This document shows positions 15,109 to 32,844 of a stretch of DNA of 32,864 bases, in pieces (position 1 is the stretch's first letter; every line of letters begins with the position of its first letter). Position numbers and translations under genes: made by a program. The notes beneath the pieces were generated by a model. The model had not been told where the DNA came from. It worked only from the letters and a program-made list of their open reading frames with translations, and did no database searches. Source of the DNA: Gammaproteobacteria bacterium (lineage in GTDB: Bacteria > Pseudomonadota > Gammaproteobacteria > SpSt-1174). The stretch lies in assembly GCA_037388465.1 (NCBI GenBank), contig JARRKE010000020.1:1-32864 (forward strand). The letters are read 5' to 3'.

Positions 15109-15909
15109 ATGCGCTCGCACAAAGCAAGGCTCGAATATTTAAAACATGCTGGGTATGTGCCACAAGGCATTATTGATATTGGAGCGCATGTCGGTAAGTG
15201 GTCTGAAATGATTCATAGCGTATTTCCTAATGCGCCAATCTTGATGATCGAGGGAAATCAAGATCACAAAGAGAAGTTATTAGGGGCCTTGGAAAATATT
15301 CAGCATAGGATGCCAGATTCCGAACTTGAGATAACTCTTTTATCAGATCAAGCAAAAGAAGCGATCTATTACAAAACAATAAATGGCGGGACATCAGGCA
15401 ATTCCCTTTATAAGGAAAATACGCCGTCATACGCGAAAGAAAACGTCATAGAGGAAATAAGAAAGACAACAACATTGGATGAAATAGTAAAGCGGTCAGG
15501 ACCTACTTACGATTTCATCAAACTGGATGTACAAGGAGCGGAAGCAGACGTTTTAAAAGGCGCATTGGCTACGATGGAACATGCGAAGTTCATCCTGATG
15601 GAAACTCAGTTGCTGGAATACAATCAAGGCGCGCCGTTGTTTCATTCAATCATTGAATTAATGGCTTCGTATGGATTTCAGATGGCGGATGTTTATGAAT
15701 TTCACTATCTACCAGATGGAAGGTTGAACGAAGTAGATGTGCTTTTTGCAAAAAGCCATGATCCAATGTTTTGCATCGATAGGAACAAGAAAATTAACAA
15801 AAAGGAAAAGACGGCAGATATCTTTAATCTTTGCCTAAATATGGACTCACCAATATCAATTATTAAGAAACTGATGAGTAATCAATTTCGACATGGCAAA
15901 TCGGGATGA
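15109..15909 (+). CDS. FkbM-family SAM-dependent methyltransferase
   Basis: FkbM-type enzymes methylate hydroxyl groups of sugars or small molecules, often in surface-polysaccharide pathways; the substrate here is unknown. The 266-residue protein shows SAM-binding motif I IIDIGAHVGKWS (residues 21-32), the acidic end of the next strand LMIEGN (45-50), and the family signature FIKLDVQGAEADVLKGA (136-152). A lysine-rich tail (about 229-240) follows the domain. Base composition is unlike the neighbours: in the row starting 15781, 18 of 60 bases are G or C, against 40 of 60 in the glmS row starting 14521, which suggests horizontal acquisition. It lies 37 bases after glmS in the same orientation with no terminator between, so it may be expressed by read-through. 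No strong ribosome site precedes the ATG. Confidence 0.85.
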   Translation: MRSHKARLEYLKHAGYVPQGIIDIGAHVGKWSEMIHSVFPNAPILMIEGNQDHKEKLLGALENIQHRMPDSELEITLLSDQAKEAIYYKTINGGTSGNSLYKENTPSYAKENVIEEIRKTTTLDEIVKRSGPTYDFIKLDVQGAEADVLKGALATMEHAKFILMETQLLEYNQGAPLFHSIIELMASYGFQMADVYEFHYLPDGRLNEVDVLFAKSHDPMFCIDRNKKINKKEKTADIFNLCLNMDSPISIIKKLMSNQFRHGKSG

Positions 15910-23752: not shown

Positions 23753-24214
23753 CTAACCAGCCCCTGCAAATCCGTTCTGCCGCCAGGCCTCGTAGAGCAC
23801 GGCCGTCGCCGCGTTCGACAGGTTCAGGCTGCGGCTTTCCGCGACCATCGGGATCCGCCGCAATCCCTCCGCAAAGCGTACCCGCACCTCAGCCGGCAGC
23901 CCGCGCGTCTCGGGTCCGAACAGCAGGGCGTCCCCCGGCGCATAGCTTGTCTCGGCATAGGACCGCGTGGCATGGGTGCTCAGCGCATACACACGGGGTG
24001 GCGCGACGCTTTCCAGAAAGTCATCCAGCGTGTCGTGCACCCGCATGCGCGCCCACTCTCGGTAATCCAGCCCCGCCCGTTTGAGACGCCGGTCGTCGAG
24101 TTCGAAACCGAGCGGGCGGATCAGATGCAAATGGCTCCCGGTGTTTGCGCACAGGCGGATGATGTTGCCGGTGTTGGGCGGGATTTCCGGCTCGAACAAG
24201 ACCACGTGAAACAT
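23753..24214 (-). CDS. trmL: tRNA (cytidine/uridine-34-2'-O)-methyltransferase TrmL
   Basis: TrmL is a SPOUT-class enzyme that 2'-O-methylates the wobble base of tRNA-Leu isoacceptors. The 153-residue product has the N-terminal EPEIPPNTGNIIRLCANTG, the RRLKRAGLDYRE segment and the C-terminal trefoil-knot SAM site LLFGPETRGLP and RSLNLSNAATAVLYE. It is convergent with gpsA, whereas in E. coli it is in the same direction. Its upstream side faces the 15-bp inverted repeat and the divergent sigma54 regulator. Confidence 0.96.
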   Translation of the reverse strand: MFHVVLFEPEIPPNTGNIIRLCANTGSHLHLIRPLGFELDDRRLKRAGLDYREWARMRVHDTLDDFLESVAPPRVYALSTHATRSYAETSYAPGDALLFGPETRGLPAEVRVRFAEGLRRIPMVAESRSLNLSNAATAVLYEAWRQNGFAGAG

Positions 24215-24230
24215 AACGGCTCCGAAGTGG

Positions 24231-24264
24231 TGTCGAAACTGTGACAGCCGTCACAGTTTCGACA
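24231..24264. repeat. perfect 15-bp inverted repeat, candidate operator or hairpin
   Basis: TGTCGAAACTGTGAC (24231-24245) is followed by the spacer AGCC and by its exact reverse complement (24250-24264). It is 16 bases upstream of the trmL start and about 87 bases upstream of the sigma54-type regulator start. No T-run follows on either strand, so it is a poor terminator. Each arm also has TGTC...GACA symmetry (24231-24246). It may be the binding site of the regulator encoded next to it or an RNA hairpin. Confidence 0.85.
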
Positions 24265-24351
24265 ATTGGGGTGTTCATTTTCTGTCAGTTGAGGCGCGAG
24301 CGGACATAAACTCCAGGGAAATCAGAGACCAAGCATTGCCATTCCGCGATC

Positions 24352-25773
24352 ATGGAGGCGAAACCGGAAATGTCTGCTCGACCACATGTGTTATCCAAGC
24401 CGGCCGTTTTACTCGTCGATGACGATCCGGCCATACGGGACAGTCTGGGATTTTATCTCGGCCGGCGGTTTACCGTGGTCAGCGCATCCTCCCGACAGGA
24501 AGTGCAAACGCTGTTGGCCAACACCGGCCGGATGCCGCGCCTGGCCCTGGTCGATCTGGGACTGCCGCCAGACACCCACAGCCCGGAGGAGGGGTTCGCC
24601 CTGATTCCCGAACTGCTGGCGCACGACTCCGAAATGCGCATCCTGGTATTGACCGGGCAGGAGGAGGCGGAGCACGTCAATCACGCACTGGCCCTGGGCG
24701 CGGCCGACTTCATCAGCAAACCCAGTGCACCGGAACACATTCTCGCCCGCCTGGAACATCAGCAGTTGATGCTGGAGACCCAGACGCAGGATCAGCTCCA
24801 ACCCGGCCAGGGCGAGATGCTGCTGGGCGAAAGCCCGGCCATGGATGCGCTGCGGGCGCAGATACGGCAATTCGCCTCCGCGCCCTTCCCGGTGCTGATC
24901 ACCGGCGAATCGGGCTGCGGCAAGGAACTGGTTGCCCGCGAGATCCATCGCATGAGCGAGGGCAGCCGGGGGCCGTATGTGGCGGTCAACTGTGCGGCCC
25001 TGCCTGGCGATCTGATCGAGGCTCAGTTGTTCGGCCATGCGCGCGGCGCCTTCACCGGGGCGCACGAAGAGCGCGTCGGCTTTTTCGCCGAGGCCTCCGG
25101 CGGCACCCTGTTGCTGGACGAGATGGGCGAGCTGCCGCCCGGCCTGCAGGCCAAGCTGCTGCGGGTGCTGGAGAACGGCGAATACTACCGCGTGGGCGAG
25201 ACGCGGCCGCGGCATGCGAAGGTGCGTCTGCTGGCTGCGACCAATCGCGACCTGCGGGCCCTGGTCGACGAGGGCCGATTCCGCGCCGACCTGTATCACC
25301 GGCTGAGCGTGCTGCGTATCCACTGCCCGCCGCTGCGCGACCGGGCGGGTGACGCGACCCGCCTTCTGCGCCACTTCCAGCAGGCCTATGCGCGTACCGT
25401 GCCGCGCTTCATCCTGAGCAAGGAGGCGCAGCGCCTGTGGGAGACTTATAACTTTCCCGGAAATGTGCGAGAGTTGAAAAACCTTGTAATTCGTCTGGGG
25501 ACGAAATATCCCAACCAGACCGTCTCCGAAGAGGCGTTGCGTGCCGAGATGGATCCCGGCACAGGGCAGTTGGTCGCCCCCACCGCCACGGACGCACAGC
25601 ACCATCTGCGCCAGATCGGCTTCGAGCTCGACGGTTATCTCCACGAGGTGGAGCGTGAACACATACTGTGTGCGCTGGACCTCGCGGGTGGGAATTTGAG
25701 CAAGGCCGCGCGTTACCTCGGCCTGAACCGGACGACCTTGTACAGTCGTATGCAACGCCTGGGTGTTCGCTGA
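24352..25773 (+). CDS. sigma54-dependent response regulator (NtrC type)
   Basis: The 473-residue protein has a receiver domain (residues 18-135; acidic pocket D23-D25, predicted phosphorylation site D68, K123), a sigma54-activating AAA+ domain (about 155-385; Walker A GESGCGKE 185-192, sigma54-contact loop GAFTGA 232-237, Walker B LLLDEMGE 253-260) and a Fis-type helix-turn-helix at the C terminus (GGNLSKAARYLGLNRTTLYSRM). All residues needed for activation are present. No histidine kinase lies in the window. Its stop overlaps the next start (TGATG), so it is the first gene of the pilus operon and probably regulates it or another surface structure. An in-frame ATG at 24370, with GGAGG 11 bases upstream, is an alternative start. 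Confidence 0.93.
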   Translation: MEAKPEMSARPHVLSKPAVLLVDDDPAIRDSLGFYLGRRFTVVSASSRQEVQTLLANTGRMPRLALVDLGLPPDTHSPEEGFALIPELLAHDSEMRILVLTGQEEAEHVNHALALGAADFISKPSAPEHILARLEHQQLMLETQTQDQLQPGQGEMLLGESPAMDALRAQIRQFASAPFPVLITGESGCGKELVAREIHRMSEGSRGPYVAVNCAALPGDLIEAQLFGHARGAFTGAHEERVGFFAEASGGTLLLDEMGELPPGLQAKLLRVLENGEYYRVGETRPRHAKVRLLAATNRDLRALVDEGRFRADLYHRLSVLRIHCPPLRDRAGDATRLLRHFQQAYARTVPRFILSKEAQRLWETYNFPGNVRELKNLVIRLGTKYPNQTVSEEALRAEMDPGTGQLVAPTATDAQHHLRQIGFELDGYLHEVEREHILCALDLAGGNLSKAARYLGLNRTTLYSRMQRLGVR

Positions 25774-26765
25774 TGCTGTATCTGGACCACTTCGGACTCA
25801 AGAAGCCGCCGTTTCGGATCACGCCGGATCCCGGCTTTTTCTATTCCGGCGCGCATCGGGGGGACGTGCTGGCCGCCCTCGTATACGCCGTCACGGCCGG
25901 CGAGGGTATCGTCAAGGTGGTCGGCGAGGTCGGCAGCGGCAAGACCATGCTGTGCCGCATGCTGGAGCTCGAACTGGCTGACCAGGTCGATATCGTCTAT
26001 CTGGCCAACCCCAGTCTGAGCCCGGACAACATCGCCCAGGCGGTCGCATTCGAACTGGGTCTGCCCACGGAAGGATTGAGCCGGCTCGAAGTGATGCAGC
26101 GGCTGCAGTCCTTTCTGCTGGAGCGCCATGCCAGCGGCCACAATGTGGTGGTGTTCATCGAAGAGGCCCAGGGCATGCCCCTGGCGACCCTCGAGGAACT
26201 GCGCCTGCTGAGCAATCTGGAGACGGCCGACCATAAGCTGTTGCAGATCGTGCTGTTCGGGCAGCCCGAGCTGGATATCAATCTTCGCGAAACCGCCATT
26301 CGCCAGCTGCGGGAACGCATCACCCACAGTTTCGAGCTGCAGCCGTTGCAGCGCGCCGACACGCACGGGTATCTCAACTTCCGCATGCGGGCCGCCGGCT
26401 ACCGCGGGCCGGACCTGTTCACACCCCGCGTGGCGCGGCAGATCGCGCGCTATTCGCAGGGGCTGATCCGCCGTATCAACATCCTCGCCGACAAGTGTCT
26501 GCTGGCGGCCTACGCCGCCGGTACGCACGCCATCACCACGGGGTTGGTCCGCCGCGCCGCGCGGGACCTGGATCCGGTGTCGGGTTCGCGCCCCGCCCCC
26601 TGGCTCGGTTGGCTGGCCAGTGCGGTGATCGCGGCCATCGTCGCCGTGGTGGTCACCTGGCAGGTGGTAACGGTACGCCCGGTACAGCCGGTGCAAGGTA
26701 CACCCGGTGCGGGGGCGCAGCAGTCGGGTTCGAGCAACGTCGCCGGAAACAAACAAAAACCATGA
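25773..26765 (+). CDS. mshM: MSHA-type pilus biogenesis ATPase MshM (ExeA-like)
   Basis: The 330-residue protein starts MLYLDHFGLKKPPFRITPDP, the typical opening of the ExeA/MshM AAA family, with FFYSGAHRG next. Walker A GEVGSGKT is at residues 51-58 and Walker B VVVFIEEAQG at 125-134, with a Glu-Glu pair. A membrane helix at about 277-300 (LGWLASAVIAAIVAVVVTWQ) is followed by a short Gln/Ser-rich periplasmic tail, so the ATPase is cytoplasmic and membrane-anchored. ExeA homologues use ATP to help secretin assembly through the cell wall; here the secretin gene follows at once with an ATGA overlap. In Vibrio, mshM follows mshL; here it precedes it. The ATG overlaps the regulator stop by one base. 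Confidence 0.88.
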   Translation: MLYLDHFGLKKPPFRITPDPGFFYSGAHRGDVLAALVYAVTAGEGIVKVVGEVGSGKTMLCRMLELELADQVDIVYLANPSLSPDNIAQAVAFELGLPTEGLSRLEVMQRLQSFLLERHASGHNVVVFIEEAQGMPLATLEELRLLSNLETADHKLLQIVLFGQPELDINLRETAIRQLRERITHSFELQPLQRADTHGYLNFRMRAAGYRGPDLFTPRVARQIARYSQGLIRRINILADKCLLAAYAAGTHAITTGLVRRAARDLDPVSGSRPAPWLGWLASAVIAAIVAVVVTWQVVTVRPVQPVQGTPGAGAQQSGSSNVAGNKQKP

Positions 26766-28471
26766 ATCGTCATATCAAACCTGTGATCGCGTTGTTCAGA
26801 CAGCCCCTCCGGCTTTGCCTCTGGGGGCTGTTTCCCCTGCTCGCGGCCTGTGCCACACCCACGCATCAGTCGGTTCAGGCCCAGAACGCGGGGGCCCAGG
26901 CCCAAGGGCACCTGGCCGAGAACGCCGTGCGGCAGGCCCCGGGGCCGATCCCGAAGCCGGTCGACCGTCCGTTGTTTCTGAAGCCGCCGCGTCCACCCGA
27001 AAAGCAGGAGGTCTACACCGTCGTGGTGGACAACGTGCCGGTACGCGATCTGCTGTTTTCGCTGGCGCGCAACGCCAAGGTCAATGTCGATATCGGCGAG
27101 GGCATTACGGGTCGGGTCACGCTGAACGCGGTCAAGGAAACCCTGCCGGCCATCCTGGCGCGCATCGCCGACCAGGTGCCGATTCGCTGGCACATCAAGG
27201 GAAACCGTCTGGTGGTGGTTGCCGATACCCCGTATTGGCAGGATTACGCCGTCAACTATCCCAACATCAACCGCAGCATCAAGAGTTCGATCTCGATCTC
27301 GACCCAGGTCGGTGCCTCGGGCGTATCCGACATCAGCAGCCAGGGTGGCGGCGGAGGCGGCGAAAGCGGTTCGAACAGCTCCTCGGCCACCATCAAGAAC
27401 GAGTCGGTGAACGGCTACTGGAATACCCTGATACGCAACATCGACACGATTCTGGGCGAGGAACCCACCGTGGTGGACAACCAGGTGCTGGGATCCAAGT
27501 CGGTGACCGCGAATCGCGAGACCGGCATGATCAGCGTCTACGCCACGCAAAAGCAGCAAAAGCAGATTCAGCAGTTCCTGCTGCAGACGCAGCGCAGCGC
27601 GGACCGCCAGGTATTGATCGAGGCCACCGTAGTGGAGGTCAACCTCAACAAAGAGCACCAGGCCGGGGTGAACTGGAACGCCATCGCCTCGGATGTCGGG
27701 CTGAGCAGCGTCAGCACGCTCACCGCTTCCAATCTGGCTCAGCCACCCTTTGTGACCCTGACCGGGTCGACCAAGGCGAACGGGTTCACGCAGCTGGACA
27801 GCACCATCAGCATGCTGCAGGCCTATGGAACGGTACGGGTGCTGTCCAGCCCCAAGATCATGGTGCTCAACAACCAGAGCGCCATCCTCAAGGTGGTGGA
27901 CAACAAGGTGTACTTCACCATCAAGGTGGATATCACGCCGACCCTGACCACCACTTCCGGCGGCGGTACGGCGACCACCTCGCTGGTGACCTATGAGACC
28001 CAGGTGCACACGGTGCCGATCGGTTTCATCATGAACGTCACACCCTACGTCAGCAGTGCCGGTGACATCACCCTCGAGGTGCGTCCGACCATCACCCGCA
28101 TCATCGGCTACGTAAACGACCCCAACCCGGCCCTCGCCCAGGTCAAGGTGACCAGCAAGATTCCGGAAGTCCAGGTGCGTGAGATGGAGTCCATGCTGCG
28201 CGTGGCCAGCGGGCAGGTGGCCGTGCTGGGCGGGCTGATGCAAAACAGCGTGGACAACACCACCCAGGGCGTACCCGGCCTGGCGAATACCCCTTATGTG
28301 AGCGACGCCTTCAGTTACAAGGACAACAAGACCAATAAGACGGAACTGGTGATCTTCATGCGCCCGCGCGTCATCCACGCTGCCAGCCTCAATGGCGATC
28401 TGAAAGATTTCACCCGCTTCCTGCCCGGCCGCAACACCCAGGGCCCGACAACCGGCGAGGAACTGCAATGA
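26762..28471 (+). CDS. mshL: MSHA-type pilus secretin lipoprotein MshL
   Basis: MshL forms the outer-membrane secretin channel through which the pilus passes. The 569-residue product has a lipoprotein signal ending in LLAAC with C30 as the lipidated residue, a secretin N-domain (VDNVPVRDLLFSLARNAKVNVDIGEGITGRVTL, about residues 89-121), a Ser/Gly-rich segment (190-208), a second N-domain (QVLIEATVVEVNLN) and the secretin core with VLSSPKIMVLNNQSA, VGFIMNVTPYVS-like IGFIMNVTPYVS, and VAVLGGLMQNS...GVPGLANTPYVSDAF. The length and arrangement are those of PilQ/MshL/GspD family members of the MSHA type. It overlaps both mshM and mshN by ATGA. Confidence 0.9.
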   Translation: MNRHIKPVIALFRQPLRLCLWGLFPLLAACATPTHQSVQAQNAGAQAQGHLAENAVRQAPGPIPKPVDRPLFLKPPRPPEKQEVYTVVVDNVPVRDLLFSLARNAKVNVDIGEGITGRVTLNAVKETLPAILARIADQVPIRWHIKGNRLVVVADTPYWQDYAVNYPNINRSIKSSISISTQVGASGVSDISSQGGGGGGESGSNSSSATIKNESVNGYWNTLIRNIDTILGEEPTVVDNQVLGSKSVTANRETGMISVYATQKQQKQIQQFLLQTQRSADRQVLIEATVVEVNLNKEHQAGVNWNAIASDVGLSSVSTLTASNLAQPPFVTLTGSTKANGFTQLDSTISMLQAYGTVRVLSSPKIMVLNNQSAILKVVDNKVYFTIKVDITPTLTTTSGGGTATTSLVTYETQVHTVPIGFIMNVTPYVSSAGDITLEVRPTITRIIGYVNDPNPALAQVKVTSKIPEVQVREMESMLRVASGQVAVLGGLMQNSVDNTTQGVPGLANTPYVSDAFSYKDNKTNKTELVIFMRPRVIHAASLNGDLKDFTRFLPGRNTQGPTTGEELQ

Positions 28472-30045
28472 GCCTGCTGCTCGATGCCCTGAAAAAGGCG
28501 GCGGCGGCCAAACAGGCACAGGAGGCCGGACATCAGGAAACGCAACCCGCCGGAGAACCGGCCGCGATCGAAACGCCCGATCAGGCCGGTGAGCTGAGTC
28601 TGGCGCCGGTCGATGCGGCGCCGGAAGACGAGGGTGAAGCGGACGAACGGGAGGATGGACTGGACGAGTCCCTCGATTCCCCGCCGTTGTCACAGGCGTT
28701 CGAGGAGGAGGAACCGGATCTCGAGTTTCCGGTTGCATCCGACCTGGAAGCGACGTCAGTGCCCTCGGACGAGCAAAGCGAACCTGAGCCGCTGGAAACC
28801 GGTGGCGAGGCCGGTTCGCCGCCGCTCTCCGGACAGGAAACTGACGGGCCGATAAACGATGTCATCGAATACGACGAGGTACCCGCTACCGATGCGGTAA
28901 GCGAACCGGCGCCGGACCCGCAGGTTGAGACGGACGGGGTGGCAGCCGAAAGCGAACCGTTGACCGTCGAGCGGCGCGGGGATCGCAATGACTGGGAAGA
29001 ACGCGACTGGGCCACGCCGGGACAGCGTGCCCAGGCGAACGCCGTCCTGCGGGCGGAGCAAAACCGGCAGCGCCGGCGCCGGCTGCTGGTGTGGGGAACG
29101 CTCGGGACGGTGGTTCTGATCGGTGCCGGGGGCTACGGGGTGTATGCCTATCGCGCCCTGCAACCGGGCCAGACGGGGCCCGCGCAGACCTTCATTGTGC
29201 AGCAAGGCCAACCGTCGGCATCCGCGCCGGCACCTCAACCGCAGCCGCCCGCCGCCACCGAGGCGCCCCAGGCCGTTGCCGCGCCGAAACCGCCTGTGGC
29301 TGAGCCGGTGCAGGTGCATCCCAAGCCACCGGCCGTGACGCACAAGCCGGCCAAACCGGCCGTCCCGTCGACGCATACCATTACGCACAAAAAGCCGGTC
29401 CGCAAAGCCGCCAGGCCCAAACCGGCAAAGCGGCCGATTGTCGTCCGTGAAGAGGGCGGCGGTTTGTCGGGCTGGCTCAACAAGGGCTACGCGGCATTCC
29501 AGCAAGGCGACTTCCAGGCCGCCGAGGCGGCTTATCGCGAGGCATACCGGATCGAGCCGAGCAACCGGGATGCCCTGCTCGGTATGGGCGCGTCGACCGC
29601 CGCGCTCGGCGATCGCGAGGCTGCTCAACAGTATTATCGGACCCTGCTGCACCTGAATCCGCAGGATGCCATTGCCAAGGCCGCCCTGAGCAGTCTGGAG
29701 GGCGCGCTGCGGCCGACGCATACCCTGGCCGAACTGCAGCGGTTGATCGCCGGTCAGCCGGATTCCGCGCCACTGCGTTTCGCGCTCGGCAACCTGTATG
29801 CAGCCGAGTCGTCATGGGCGCAGGCCGTGCAGGCTTACGGCGAAGCGGTGAGCCTGGAAAGCAGCAATCCGGATTACCTGTTCAACCTAGCGGTGGCACA
29901 GGATCACCTGGGTCATCTCGACCAGGCGCTGCAAAACTATCGCCGCGCGGAAGTGGCGGCGTTGACCCACCCCTCCCTGATCGATCGCTCGATCCTGCGT
30001 GAACGGATCCGGGCCATCGAAGCGTTGCGGCGGCATGCCTCCTGA
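28468..30045 (+). CDS. mshN: MSHA-type pilus biogenesis TPR protein MshN
   Basis: The 525-residue protein starts with MSLLLDALKKAA, a signature of MshN-type proteins. A long acidic, Glu/Pro-rich cytoplasmic region follows (about 48-160), then one membrane helix (206-228), a Pro/Lys/Ala-rich periplasmic linker (245-325) that may span the peptidoglycan layer, and a C-terminal set of tetratricopeptide repeats (about 335-500; KGYAAFQQGDFQAAEAAYREAYRIEP and AQAVQAYGEAVSLES). It probably links the inner-membrane platform to the secretin. The acidic region is longer than in short homologues. It overlaps mshL by ATGA and mshE by 11 bases. The name rests on the N-terminal motif, topology and position. 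Confidence 0.82.
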   Translation: MSLLLDALKKAAAAKQAQEAGHQETQPAGEPAAIETPDQAGELSLAPVDAAPEDEGEADEREDGLDESLDSPPLSQAFEEEEPDLEFPVASDLEATSVPSDEQSEPEPLETGGEAGSPPLSGQETDGPINDVIEYDEVPATDAVSEPAPDPQVETDGVAAESEPLTVERRGDRNDWEERDWATPGQRAQANAVLRAEQNRQRRRRLLVWGTLGTVVLIGAGGYGVYAYRALQPGQTGPAQTFIVQQGQPSASAPAPQPQPPAATEAPQAVAAPKPPVAEPVQVHPKPPAVTHKPAKPAVPSTHTITHKKPVRKAARPKPAKRPIVVREEGGGLSGWLNKGYAAFQQGDFQAAEAAYREAYRIEPSNRDALLGMGASTAALGDREAAQQYYRTLLHLNPQDAIAKAALSSLEGALRPTHTLAELQRLIAGQPDSAPLRFALGNLYAAESSWAQAVQAYGEAVSLESSNPDYLFNLAVAQDHLGHLDQALQNYRRAEVAALTHPSLIDRSILRERIRAIEALRRHAS

Positions 30046-31771
30046 GTCCCAGGCCCGCAGACGGCAGGACACGGCCGCAGGCAAGCGCAAGCGGCGCCTG
30101 GGCGAGTATCTCGTTCACAAGGGCATCATCAGCGAGGACCAGCTGCGCATCGCCCTGACCGAGCAGCAGCGTTCGCAGCGCCAGCTCGGGCAGATCCTGG
30201 TCCAGCTGGGATTTTTGACCGAGTCGGTATTGCGCGACTTCCTGGGCGAGGTGCTGGGGCAGGAAAGTATCGACCTCGGCCGCGTGGTTCCCGATCCCGC
30301 CGCGCTGGAGCTCATTCCCAAGGACCTGGCCCGCCGTTACAAGCTGCTGCCCGTCAACTACGACAAGGAGACCGGCGAGCTGTTGGTCGCCATGGCCGAC
30401 ACCTACGACCTGCTTGCGCAGGACAAGCTGCTCGCCCATCTGGGCGGGCGGCTGATCGTCAAACCGGTGCTCGCCGGCGGCGCCGAGATCGAGACCGCCA
30501 TCGACCAGTACTACGGGCACGTGCTGTCGCTGGAGGGCATTCTGCAGGAGATCGAGACCGGCGAGATCGACTACCAGAGCCTGACGACGGAAAGCGAGGA
30601 GTACAGCCAGCCGGTGGTGCGCCTGGTCAACGCCATCATCAGCGACGCCGTCAAGCGGGACGCCTCGGACATCCACTTCGAACCCGAAAGGGGGTTTTTG
30701 CGCGTGCGCTACCGCATCGACGGCGTACTGCGCCAGGTCCGTTCCCTGCACCGCAACTACTCGCCCGCCATCGTCGTGCGCCTGAAGGTCATGGCGCACA
30801 TGAATATCGCCGAAACCCGCGCGCCGCAGGACGGCCGGTTTTCGCTGCGCGTCACCGGCCGGGACGTCGACTTCCGCGTGTCGAGCCAGCCGACCACGCA
30901 CGGTGAAAACATCGTGCTGCGTATCCTGGATCGCGAAAAGGGCATCGTGCCGCTGGAGCAGCTCGGCCTGGAGCCCGACAACCTCGACCTGCTGCGCCTG
31001 CTGATGAGCCGCCCGGAAGGCATCATGATGGTGACCGGGCCGACCGGCAGCGGCAAGACCACCACGCTGTATTCGATGCTCAGCCACGTGAACCACGAGG
31101 GCATCAACATCATGACCCTCGAGGACCCGGTCGAGTATCCGATGTCCATGATCCGGCAGACCTCGGTCAACGAGGCGGCCAAGCTGGATTTCGCCAACGG
31201 CATCCGTTCCATGATGCGTCAGGATCCCGACGTGATTCTGGTCGGCGAAATCCGCGACGAGGACACGGCGCAGATGGCGTTTCGCGCCGCCATGACCGGC
31301 CACCAGGTGTTTTCCACCCTGCATACCAACTCGGCCATCGGCGCCTTTCCGCGCCTGCGCGACATCGGGGTGATACCGGACATTCTGGCCGGCAACATCA
31401 TCGGCGTGCTCGCGCAGCGCCTGGTCCGCAAGCTGTGCACGCATTGCCGTGAGCCCTACGCGCCGGACGGGATCGAGCTGCGCATTCTCGGCCTGCCGCC
31501 TGACGAACATCCGACCCTGATGCGCGCCAAGGGATGCCCGCGCTGCGACCACACCGGTTACCGCGGTCGCGTGGCCTTGATGGAGATCCTGCGCATGGAT
31601 CCCGAGCTGGACGAACTGGTGGCCAGCAACGCCACGCAGAAGACCCTGCTGGACGCGGCGTTCGAGCGCGGCTTCCGGCCGCTGGTCGAGGACGGTGTCC
31701 GGCGCGTGCTGTCCGGCGTCACCAGCCTCGATGAGGTGACGCGCGTAGTAGACCTGACGGGCAGGCTCTGA
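30035..31771 (+). CDS. mshE: MSHA-type pilus extension ATPase MshE with c-di-GMP-binding N domain
   Basis: MshE is the GspE/PilB-type hexameric ATPase powering pilus extension. From the ATG at 30035 it has 578 residues. The N-terminal MshEN domain has two consecutive c-di-GMP-binding motifs, RLGEYLVHKGIISEDQL (residues 21-37, ending in Q44) and LGQILVQLGFLTESVL (51-66), matching the RLGxxLVxxG...L...LxxQ pattern. The ATPase core has Walker A GPTGSGKT (335-342), Walker B VILVGEIRDEDTAQ, Asp and His boxes (DIHFEP, HTNSA) and a tetracysteine zinc site CTHC...CPRC. The open frame extends upstream to a GTG at 29999, but that start would overlap mshN by 47 bases. The ATG overlaps mshN by 11 bases, and the stop overlaps mshG by one base. 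Confidence 0.92.
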   Translation: MPPESQARRRQDTAAGKRKRRLGEYLVHKGIISEDQLRIALTEQQRSQRQLGQILVQLGFLTESVLRDFLGEVLGQESIDLGRVVPDPAALELIPKDLARRYKLLPVNYDKETGELLVAMADTYDLLAQDKLLAHLGGRLIVKPVLAGGAEIETAIDQYYGHVLSLEGILQEIETGEIDYQSLTTESEEYSQPVVRLVNAIISDAVKRDASDIHFEPERGFLRVRYRIDGVLRQVRSLHRNYSPAIVVRLKVMAHMNIAETRAPQDGRFSLRVTGRDVDFRVSSQPTTHGENIVLRILDREKGIVPLEQLGLEPDNLDLLRLLMSRPEGIMMVTGPTGSGKTTTLYSMLSHVNHEGINIMTLEDPVEYPMSMIRQTSVNEAAKLDFANGIRSMMRQDPDVILVGEIRDEDTAQMAFRAAMTGHQVFSTLHTNSAIGAFPRLRDIGVIPDILAGNIIGVLAQRLVRKLCTHCREPYAPDGIELRILGLPPDEHPTLMRAKGCPRCDHTGYRGRVALMEILRMDPELDELVASNATQKTLLDAAFERGFRPLVEDGVRRVLSGVTSLDEVTRVVDLTGRL

Positions 31772-32844
31772 TGCAGCATTTCCGCTACAAGGCGCAGGAT
31801 ATCGAAGGCCGCATCGTGGGCGGCGTGCTGGAGGCGGCGAACGAGATCGACGTCGAGATGCGTCTGGAGCGCATGGGGCTGGAACTGATACGCGTGCGCC
31901 CGGTGCGCCACTTCCACTTCAGCCTGTTTTCCCGCGGCGTGCGGCGCGGCGACCTGATCAACTTTACCTTCTACCTCCAGCAGCTGCTTTCCGCCGGTGT
32001 ACCGATGATCCAGGCACTTGCCGACCTGCGCGATACCAGCGACAACCCGCGCATGCAGGCCGTGCTGAGCACCCTGGTGGAGTCCATCGAGGGCGGACAA
32101 AACCTGTCCGAGGCCCTGGAGGAATATCAGCGCCTGTTCGGACAGACCTACGTGCACGTGGTGCGGGTCGGCGAACAGGCGGGCAATCTGCCGGAAATGC
32201 TCGACGAGCTGACCTCCATGCTCAAATGGCAGGAGCTGCCGTTCCAGACCCGCATGCTGATCGCGACGTCCGATTTTTTCGTCAATTTCTGGTACGTGGT
32301 GCTGCTGTTGCCGTTCGTGATCTTTTTCGCGATCCGCGCGGGGGCCCGCTCGAGTCCACGTTTCCGTTTCCAGCTGGATCGCCTCAAGTTGCGCATTCCG
32401 CTCATCGGGCCGTTGCTGTACAAGATCAAGCTCGCCCGTTTTGCGCGCAATTTTTCGTTGATGTACCGGGCCGGCATCACGGTGCTGGAAATTCTGCGTC
32501 TGAATTTCAAGGTCATGGATAACCTGGTGCTGCAGGAAGCCTTGCAGGAGGTGCACAAGGAAATCTCGGAAGGCGTCAACATCAGCACGGCCTTCGCCAA
32601 CGTGGCGCTGTTCTCACCGCTGGTGGTGCGTATGCTGCGCGTGGGCGAAAACACCGGCGGGCTGGACCGGGCGTTGGAAAACGTCAGTTACTTTTACGAC
32701 CGTGAGGTCAAGGAGTCTATCGAGCGCCTGGAGCCCATGATCGAGCCGGCGCTCACGGTCGTGCTCGGCGCCATCGTCGGGTGGGTCATGTTCTCGACGC
32801 TCGGCCCGGTATACAACACGGCGGTCAGTATGGGCGCGATGTGA
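31771..32844 (+). CDS. mshG: MSHA-type pilus inner-membrane platform protein MshG, with internal deletion
   Basis: GspF/PilC-type platform proteins have two homologous cytoplasmic domains, each followed by a membrane helix region. This 357-residue product is short by about 48 residues compared with PilC (405). Domain 1 is intact (NFTFYLQQLLSAGVPMIQAL to RVGEQAGNLPEMLDEL) but after TSMLKWQ (residue 154) the sequence jumps directly to ELPFQTRMLIATSDFFVNFW, which in homologues lies after the first membrane helix. Domain 2 keeps the equivalent region: RVGENTGGLDRALENVSYFYDRE followed by IEPALTVVLGAIVGWVMF. Two hydrophobic helices remain (about 172-188 and 329-345). The frame is intact. Function may be lost or altered. 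The ATG overlaps the mshE stop by one base. Confidence 0.88.
   Translation: MQHFRYKAQDIEGRIVGGVLEAANEIDVEMRLERMGLELIRVRPVRHFHFSLFSRGVRRGDLINFTFYLQQLLSAGVPMIQALADLRDTSDNPRMQAVLSTLVESIEGGQNLSEALEEYQRLFGQTYVHVVRVGEQAGNLPEMLDELTSMLKWQELPFQTRMLIATSDFFVNFWYVVLLLPFVIFFAIRAGARSSPRFRFQLDRLKLRIPLIGPLLYKIKLARFARNFSLMYRAGITVLEILRLNFKVMDNLVLQEALQEVHKEISEGVNISTAFANVALFSPLVVRMLRVGENTGGLDRALENVSYFYDREVKESIERLEPMIEPALTVVLGAIVGWVMFSTLGPVYNTAVSMGAM

Follow-up and report, generated by a model that had tools for sequence, protein, structure and literature searches.

A perfect 15-bp inverted repeat lies between trmL and the divergent gene for an NtrC-class response regulator (RR) in the stretch of 32,864 nucleotides analysed here (the window), and our results make it likely that this repeat is the RR's own tandem operator, which would probably be autoregulatory. 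The repeat is read as a twin RR site because a doubled site precedes the pilin genes of genomes that carry the RR and was not seen at the pilin genes of non-carriers. The original prediction had offered two roles for the repeat, an operator such as the enhancer site of the neighboring sigma-54 regulator, or a structured leader RNA. The top rank that a motif gave to the repeat and the shared distribution of site and regulator among genomes favor the former as the candidate role, and little support was obtained for the latter, given the lack of an Rfam match, a modest fold z-score and the short arms found in the strongest RR promoters.

The two arms, TGTCGAAACTGTGAC at 24231-24245 and GTCACAGTTTCGACA at 24250-24264, are 100% complementary over 15 bp and are separated by a 4-nt spacer, in a gap of 137 bases (24215-24351) between the trmL start at 24214 on the minus strand and the RR start at 24352, exactly as predicted and at the coordinates given. 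When perfect dyads with arms of at least 13 bp and loops of 3-20 were sought in the whole window, this was the sole case and also the longest, and among 60 dinucleotide-shuffled windows one reached an arm of 13 and the rest did not exceed 11, in agreement with the earlier view that the repeat is beyond chance. The left arm together with the next base, TGTCGAAACTGTGACA (24231-24246), is an exact TGTC-N8-GACA, and the mirror 16-mer, CGTCACAGTTTCGACA (24249-24264), has a single mismatch to this pattern (CGTC for TGTC). The TGTC/GACA half-symmetry that had been described for each arm is thus found in the left arm, given the next base, and is broken at one position in its mirror. The repeat can thus be divided into two TGTC-N8-GACA-like dyads that are offset by 18 bp (Table 1). 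The 15-bp arm has no further copy at fewer than two mismatches in the genome (2.79 Mb); therefore, the repeat is not dispersed, and the reading as a common dispersed repeat, which had been named as a finding that would speak against an operator, was rejected.

Table 1. Features of the trmL-RR gap and of the genes on either side of it (positions in the window)
Feature	Position	Strand	Remarks
trmL, divergent neighbor	23753..24214	-	SpoU methylase domain
Perfect 15-bp inverted repeat, 4-bp loop	24231..24264	.	interpreted as two mirror-image dyads that form a tandem operator
Putative operator dyad 1, TGTCGAAACTGTGACA	24231..24246	.	10.0 bits with the pilin-promoter motif, rank 1 of 32,849
CRP-type core TGTGA-N6-TCACA, repeat center	24240..24255	.	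exact match
Putative operator dyad 2, CGTCACAGTTTCGACA	24249..24264	.	7.2 bits, rank 9
Possible weak third dyad, TGTTCATTTTCTGTCA	24272..24287	.	4.4 bits, 23 bp past dyad 2
NtrC-class RR	24352..25773	+	receiver, sigma-54 AAA+ and Fis-type HTH domains
ExeA/MshM-like AAA ATPase	25668..26765	+	TIGR03015 below cut-off, Pfam AAA_22 above
MshL-like secretin	26495..28471	+	TIGR02519 235.7 of 250.2 bits (below cut-off); Pfam Secretin above
TPR protein	28468..30045	+	MshN-like by position
MshE-type ATPase	29999..31771	+	T2SSE and MshEN domains
MshG-type inner-membrane protein	31771..32844	+	T2SSF domains; name by position

The gene run headed by the RR is an MSHA-type pilus set, in which the TPR protein is presumably MshN-like. 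The true start of the ExeA/MshM-like ATPase is probably near 25773, overlapping the RR stop codon, and the coordinates of the secretin are those of the ORF as listed, its real start lying further in. The best NCBIfam models for the RR were NtrC (348.5 of 558.6 bits) and the PEP-CTERM response regulator PrsR (335.7 of 502.6 bits), both below cut-off, and the trmL product scored 190.5 of 190.6 bits (just below cut-off) and 201.3 of 282 bits (below) with the NCBIfam TrmL models. The RR was found in 50 of 369 sampled genomes of the class at an E value of 1e-95 or better, its own genome counted. Two genomes of the same family gave no match to the RR at an E value of 1e-100; in both, a different gene begins right beside trmL and the trmL-RR gap is missing. 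The genome of the window contains nine more matches to enhancer-binding proteins at 1e-60 or better.

In one carrier (G155), near-identical palindromes were found at the RR promoter (TGTTGAAATTTCAACA) and before a type IV pilin gene (TGTTGAAAATTCAACA), which led us to read pilin promoters across genomes. The best pilin matches from 13 genomes yielded 12 readable promoters; lower-ranked matches were left out, as were the G211 pilin, in which the N-terminal motif was not found, and the second pilin match of G155. For de novo motif discovery, 11 pilin promoters of RR carriers were used, G345 being omitted as a member of the same genus as G138, and the window was not part of this set. A palindromic model with one site per sequence and a per-sequence background gave the motif TGTYGAAAWTTCRACA with a log-likelihood of 53.3, and a repeat run with 300 random starts for the real data and the shuffles alike gave 53.2 versus 21.4-27.4 in 20 shuffles. 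A mixture model without the per-sequence background collapsed to a G+C motif on these promoters and was rejected.

When the window was scanned with the TGTYGAAAWTTCRACA motif, position 24231 ranked first of 32,849 positions and 24249 ranked ninth. These two positions also formed the top tandem pair at 17.2 bits, followed by a pair of 11.5 bits in the same gap and by 7.7 bits elsewhere; a pair of 17.2 bits was reached anywhere in 2 of 60 shuffled windows, and the gap makes up 0.4% of the window. A single site of 10 bits appears in 8 of 100 shuffled versions of the RR's own promoter, and the dyads of the window are mediocre (10.0 and 7.2 bits) in comparison with the best sites of the eight pilin promoters that bear a sigma-54 element (14.0-22.3 bits). 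In these eight of the 12 pilin promoters (G155, G265, G360, G222, G106, G138, G345, and G215), two to three dyads are followed by a TGGCA-type sigma-54 element at a distance of 66-206 bp (66-129 bp in six), and neighboring dyads are 18-22 bp apart, with one step of 32 bp in G138 and in G345. The tandem pattern had 46 summed mismatches on the 12 promoters versus a mean of 72.0 and a minimum of 63 in 300 shuffled sets. In the pilin promoters of G138 and G345, two dyads in mirror image span 34 bp and are offset by 18 bp, as in the window; their perfect outer arms measure 8 and 11 bp, respectively.

The pilin locus of the window's own genome lies at the end of contig 83, where the prepilin begins 39 residues before the contig stops. 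It contains a sigma-54-like element, TGGCATGGATACTGC, with weaker dyads 120 bp (9.5 bits) and 101 bp (8.2 bits) before it and a further match of 8.4 bits 46 bp ahead of it; both dyads overlap the ORF that precedes, at its 3' end. In the search for arm-like sites in the genome that had been suggested as a check, TGTCGAAANTTCGACA was not enriched when up to 3 mismatches were allowed (19 and 16 on the two strands versus 12 and 19 in the reversed control). Among ten orthologue genomes searched for TGTCGAAANTTCGACA at up to 2 mismatches, counts above the control were obtained only in G361 (5 versus 0), G156 (2 versus 0), and G265 (10 versus 7); G266 gave zero, and the six others were at or under the control.

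The co-occurrence of site and regulator was observed directly, as were the sequence of the repeat and its match to the motif. A search of the class with the G222 pilin gave matches in 58 of 369 genomes, and 30 loci were returned, of which 29 were scored, 13 with the RR and 16 without it at the E threshold of 1e-95. With a strict pattern of TGTC/GACA pairs 16-24 bp apart and at most 4 of 16 mismatches, which itself came from the window and whose spacing range and mismatch cut were fixed, like the sigma-54 pattern, after the RR-carrying promoters had been viewed, tandem pairs were detected at the pilin promoters of 9 of 13 RR carriers versus 0 of 16 non-carriers (rank-sum p = 1.8e-5). The G155 pair by itself was equalled in 6 of 60 shuffles. 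Counted by family, which is the only correction for relatedness, tandem pairs occurred in 5 of 7 families with the RR versus 0 of 11 without it (p = 0.0025). A comparison of carriers and non-carriers with the matrix gave p = 5e-6, a value that is not independent because 11 of the 13 RR-carrying promoters had served to train the matrix. The sigma-54-type element TGG[CA]N9GC was present in 8 of 13 carriers versus 1 of 16 non-carriers (p = 0.0033). The element was missing from the pilin promoter of G156, and four carriers (G034, G178, G284, and G088) had neither a tandem pair nor a sigma-54 element at the pilin gene. A sigma-54-type element thus follows such sites at 8 of the 13 pilin promoters of RR carriers and not in the gap itself, where GG-N10-GC is absent from the plus strand between the repeat and the RR start, which is why the repeat is classed as a putative autoregulatory operator and not as a classical sigma-54 enhancer of the gap.

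Comparison of the same gap in relatives had also been suggested. Among 49 RR promoters (48 genomes and the window's own; G302 was left out because its match was at a contig edge), four contained an exact TGTC-N8-GACA, a number reached by 0 of 100 shuffles (shuffle mean 0.11), and the promoters of 22 named, held-out orthologues contained none at up to one mismatch. These named-genome orthologues were found with a receiver-domain profile, which gave at least 80 loci, of which the best 22 (L153-L174) were used; no relative was recovered from the named genomes when the full-length regulator served as the query. With one mismatch allowed, a CRP-like site was present in 0 of the 49 promoters (shuffle mean 0.23) and 0 of the 22. 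Therefore, neither TGTC-N8-GACA nor the CRP core is general to the RR promoter. The TGTYGAAAWTTCRACA motif reached 11 bits or more in 8 of 72 RR promoters from four families, versus a mean of 1.6 and a maximum of 5 in 100 shuffles, three of the eight belonging to genomes whose pilin promoter had trained the motif; at 10.0 bits, the site in the window is under this mark. A de novo motif search in the RR promoters returned only a coding motif of an upstream metF-like gene (named by eye). In two RR promoters of one family (f154; L112 and L113), the dyad abuts a CTATAC-type box, which we read as a -10 box. In three gammaproteobacterial MAGs (L157, L159, and L164), the trmL-regulator gap has a shared TGGCAACATTTCTGC (GG-N10-GC) with a TATATA-like box immediately after it, and the dyads were not found in these gaps.

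These results suggest a model in which the RR, encoded 87 bp downstream of the repeat, would bind the two mirror-image dyads of the TGTYGAAAWTTCRACA form at their 18-bp offset, the two being so alike that together they appear as one 34-bp inverted repeat. The phosphorylated RR would occupy both dyads, probably in a cooperative manner, and would thereby control its own operon, comprising the regulator, the ATPase, the secretin, the TPR protein, and the MshE-type and MshG-type genes. From tandem sites of the same kind, placed ahead of a sigma-54 promoter, the regulator would also switch on a separate pilin gene. The identity of this RR as the binding protein, its cooperativity and the sign of the autoregulation are predicted from sequence comparisons. 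The RR is somewhat more likely to repress or fine-tune its own operon than to activate it, since no sigma-54 element follows the site here and since the dyads of L112 and L113 abut the CTATAC-type box.

The center of the repeat is at the same time an exact CRP core, and another such core lies at the promoter of the genome's own pilin gene, 78 bp ahead of the sigma-54-like element, so that a composite operator is possible. In this case, the RR would bind the two flanking dyads and cAMP-CRP the central dyad of the 34-bp palindrome, the two competing with each other, a proposal that we regard as tentative. Both dyads deviate from the motif in the same way, their inner halves being TGTGACA and not TTCRACA, and it is exactly these shared deviations that create the perfect central core. 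Two of the five exact CRP cores in the genome sit at loci with RR-type sites, namely the RR operon and the pilin gene. It is unlikely that the central site alone is functional, with cAMP-CRP controlling the pilus operon and the outer symmetry being incidental, even though the TGTGA/TCACA half-sites are matched perfectly, the genome encodes a CRP (343 bits versus a curated cut-off of 266), and cAMP-Vfr directly controls pilus genes in Pseudomonas aeruginosa according to the available text of PMC8787478. The five exact TGTGA-N6-TCACA sites compare with 0 in the reversed control, but they are only a modest excess over the approximately 2.7 expected by simple arithmetic at equal base frequencies. 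Furthermore, CRP-like sites at up to one mismatch were missing from 12 pilin promoters as well as from the orthologue RR promoters, and control by CRP alone leaves the outer TGTCGA/TCGACA symmetry and the match to the pilin motif unexplained. The remaining three exact cores are located upstream of a diguanylate cyclase gene, before a weak CcsB match, and within the 3' end of an ORF that precedes the gene for an enhancer-binding protein, which we take to be FleQ. Identical 16-mers, TGTGAACGCCGTCACA, were noted at two loci far from each other, L056 1501-1516 (G000:C2:93965) and L057 1501-1516 (G000:C8:3410), one ahead of an enhancer-binding protein gene (presumably FleQ) and the other ahead of a diguanylate cyclase gene.

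Alternatively, another sigma-54 activator, such as a PilR- or NifA-like protein, might bind the TGT-N10-ACA dyads and the adjacent RR might merely be one of its clients. The upstream activator sequence of NifA is TGT-N10-ACA, a half-site geometry that the dyads share, and the nine additional matches to enhancer-binding proteins in the genome also speak for this reading. The hallmarks of PilR binding, as given in the available part of PMC6058289, are NifA-like TGT-N11-AGA and GTCT elements. This alternative seems unlikely, in that the sites at pilin promoters track the presence of the RR orthologue, the one activator scored for co-occurrence, and in four other families the promoter of the RR itself also contains the site. 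A hairpin that acts on trmL or the RR, as a structured leader RNA or a bidirectional terminator, is very improbable. In its favor, the stem is perfect over 15 bp and is 17 bp away from the trmL start, and folding the gap as a single strand gave a z-score of -2.16, with 3 of 200 shuffles equally stable. However, the Rfam search of the window gave no match, neither strand shows a T-run after the repeat, as had been noted in the original prediction, and the longest perfect arms were only 5-8 bp in the eight RR promoters that scored highest with the motif and 6-11 bp in the 12 pilin promoters. An intrinsic terminator was rejected, since there is no T-run after the stem and no terminator-like pattern at the repeat; the lone such pattern in 24100-24450 is a weak 7-pair stem at 24219-24239 on the minus strand, separate from the repeat (shuffle mean 0.4).

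The proposed RR operator resembles several known systems. In PEP-CTERM genomes, a sigma-54-linked upstream motif is distributed like PrsR, as stated in the available sections of PMC1569441, and the same sections describe an activator motif ahead of a sigma-54 motif, mostly at solitary structural genes and with a distribution matching that of the regulator. The RR studied here matches the PrsR model (TIGR02915) at 335.7 bits but is under its 502.6-bit cut-off, and its putative targets are a pilin gene and an MSHA-type operon. The hunt for the PrsR motif began with a TTTACA alignment, which is unlike TGTYGAAAWTTCRACA, a comparison that was made with the text description in those sections of PMC1569441 and not with a logo. 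The PilS-PilR control of pilA is similar in that a sigma-54 RR acts at a pilin promoter in which TGT/GTCT-type half-sites are repeated, but the PilR hallmarks (TGT-N11-AGA with GTCT elements, in the part of PMC6058289 available) are different and the operon here is MSHA-type. The sites differ from the NifA upstream sequence in an extra GAAA/TTTC core, and nif context was not seen near the sites read. The exact TGTGA-N6-TCACA core resembles the sites of CRP and Vfr, the consensus of the latter being ANWWTGNGAWNYAGWTCACAT (PMC8787478, available text), but it is embedded in a longer dyad and was not found at the orthologous promoters read. Further related literature includes PMC9850573 and PMC3333781, both available in part, and no title or abstract opening found in our literature search describes this regulator-motif pair. 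The analysis thus provides a predicted DNA recognition motif and a core regulon for a PrsR-related RR subfamily present in 50 of 369 genomes of the class, the proposed core regulon being the RR's own MSHA-type pilus operon and a solitary sigma-54 pilin gene. If the composite operator exists, pilus building would be tied to a two-component signal and to cAMP, and the overlap with CRP, if real, would be a compact case of two signaling systems on one palindrome.

Several minor observations were made in the window and its genome. A 16-mer close to the arm, TGTCGAACCTGTNACA, occurs in the same genome at L003 1500-1515 (G000:C4) and L005 1501-1516 (G000:C23), where it precedes genes resembling those for RNase T and DsrE, respectively (both named by eye), and scores 8.8 and 4.4 bits with the pilin-promoter motif. 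The short contig G000:C86 contains TGTCCAAAATGTGAC twice (positions 825 and 3907; L008 and L009) and two CRP-like sites with 2 mismatches at 792 and 815. In addition, an ORF for an FkbM-type methyltransferase at 15109-15909 of the window lies in an island of low G+C content (approximately 0.40 versus approximately 0.65 around it), which is possibly a recent insertion.
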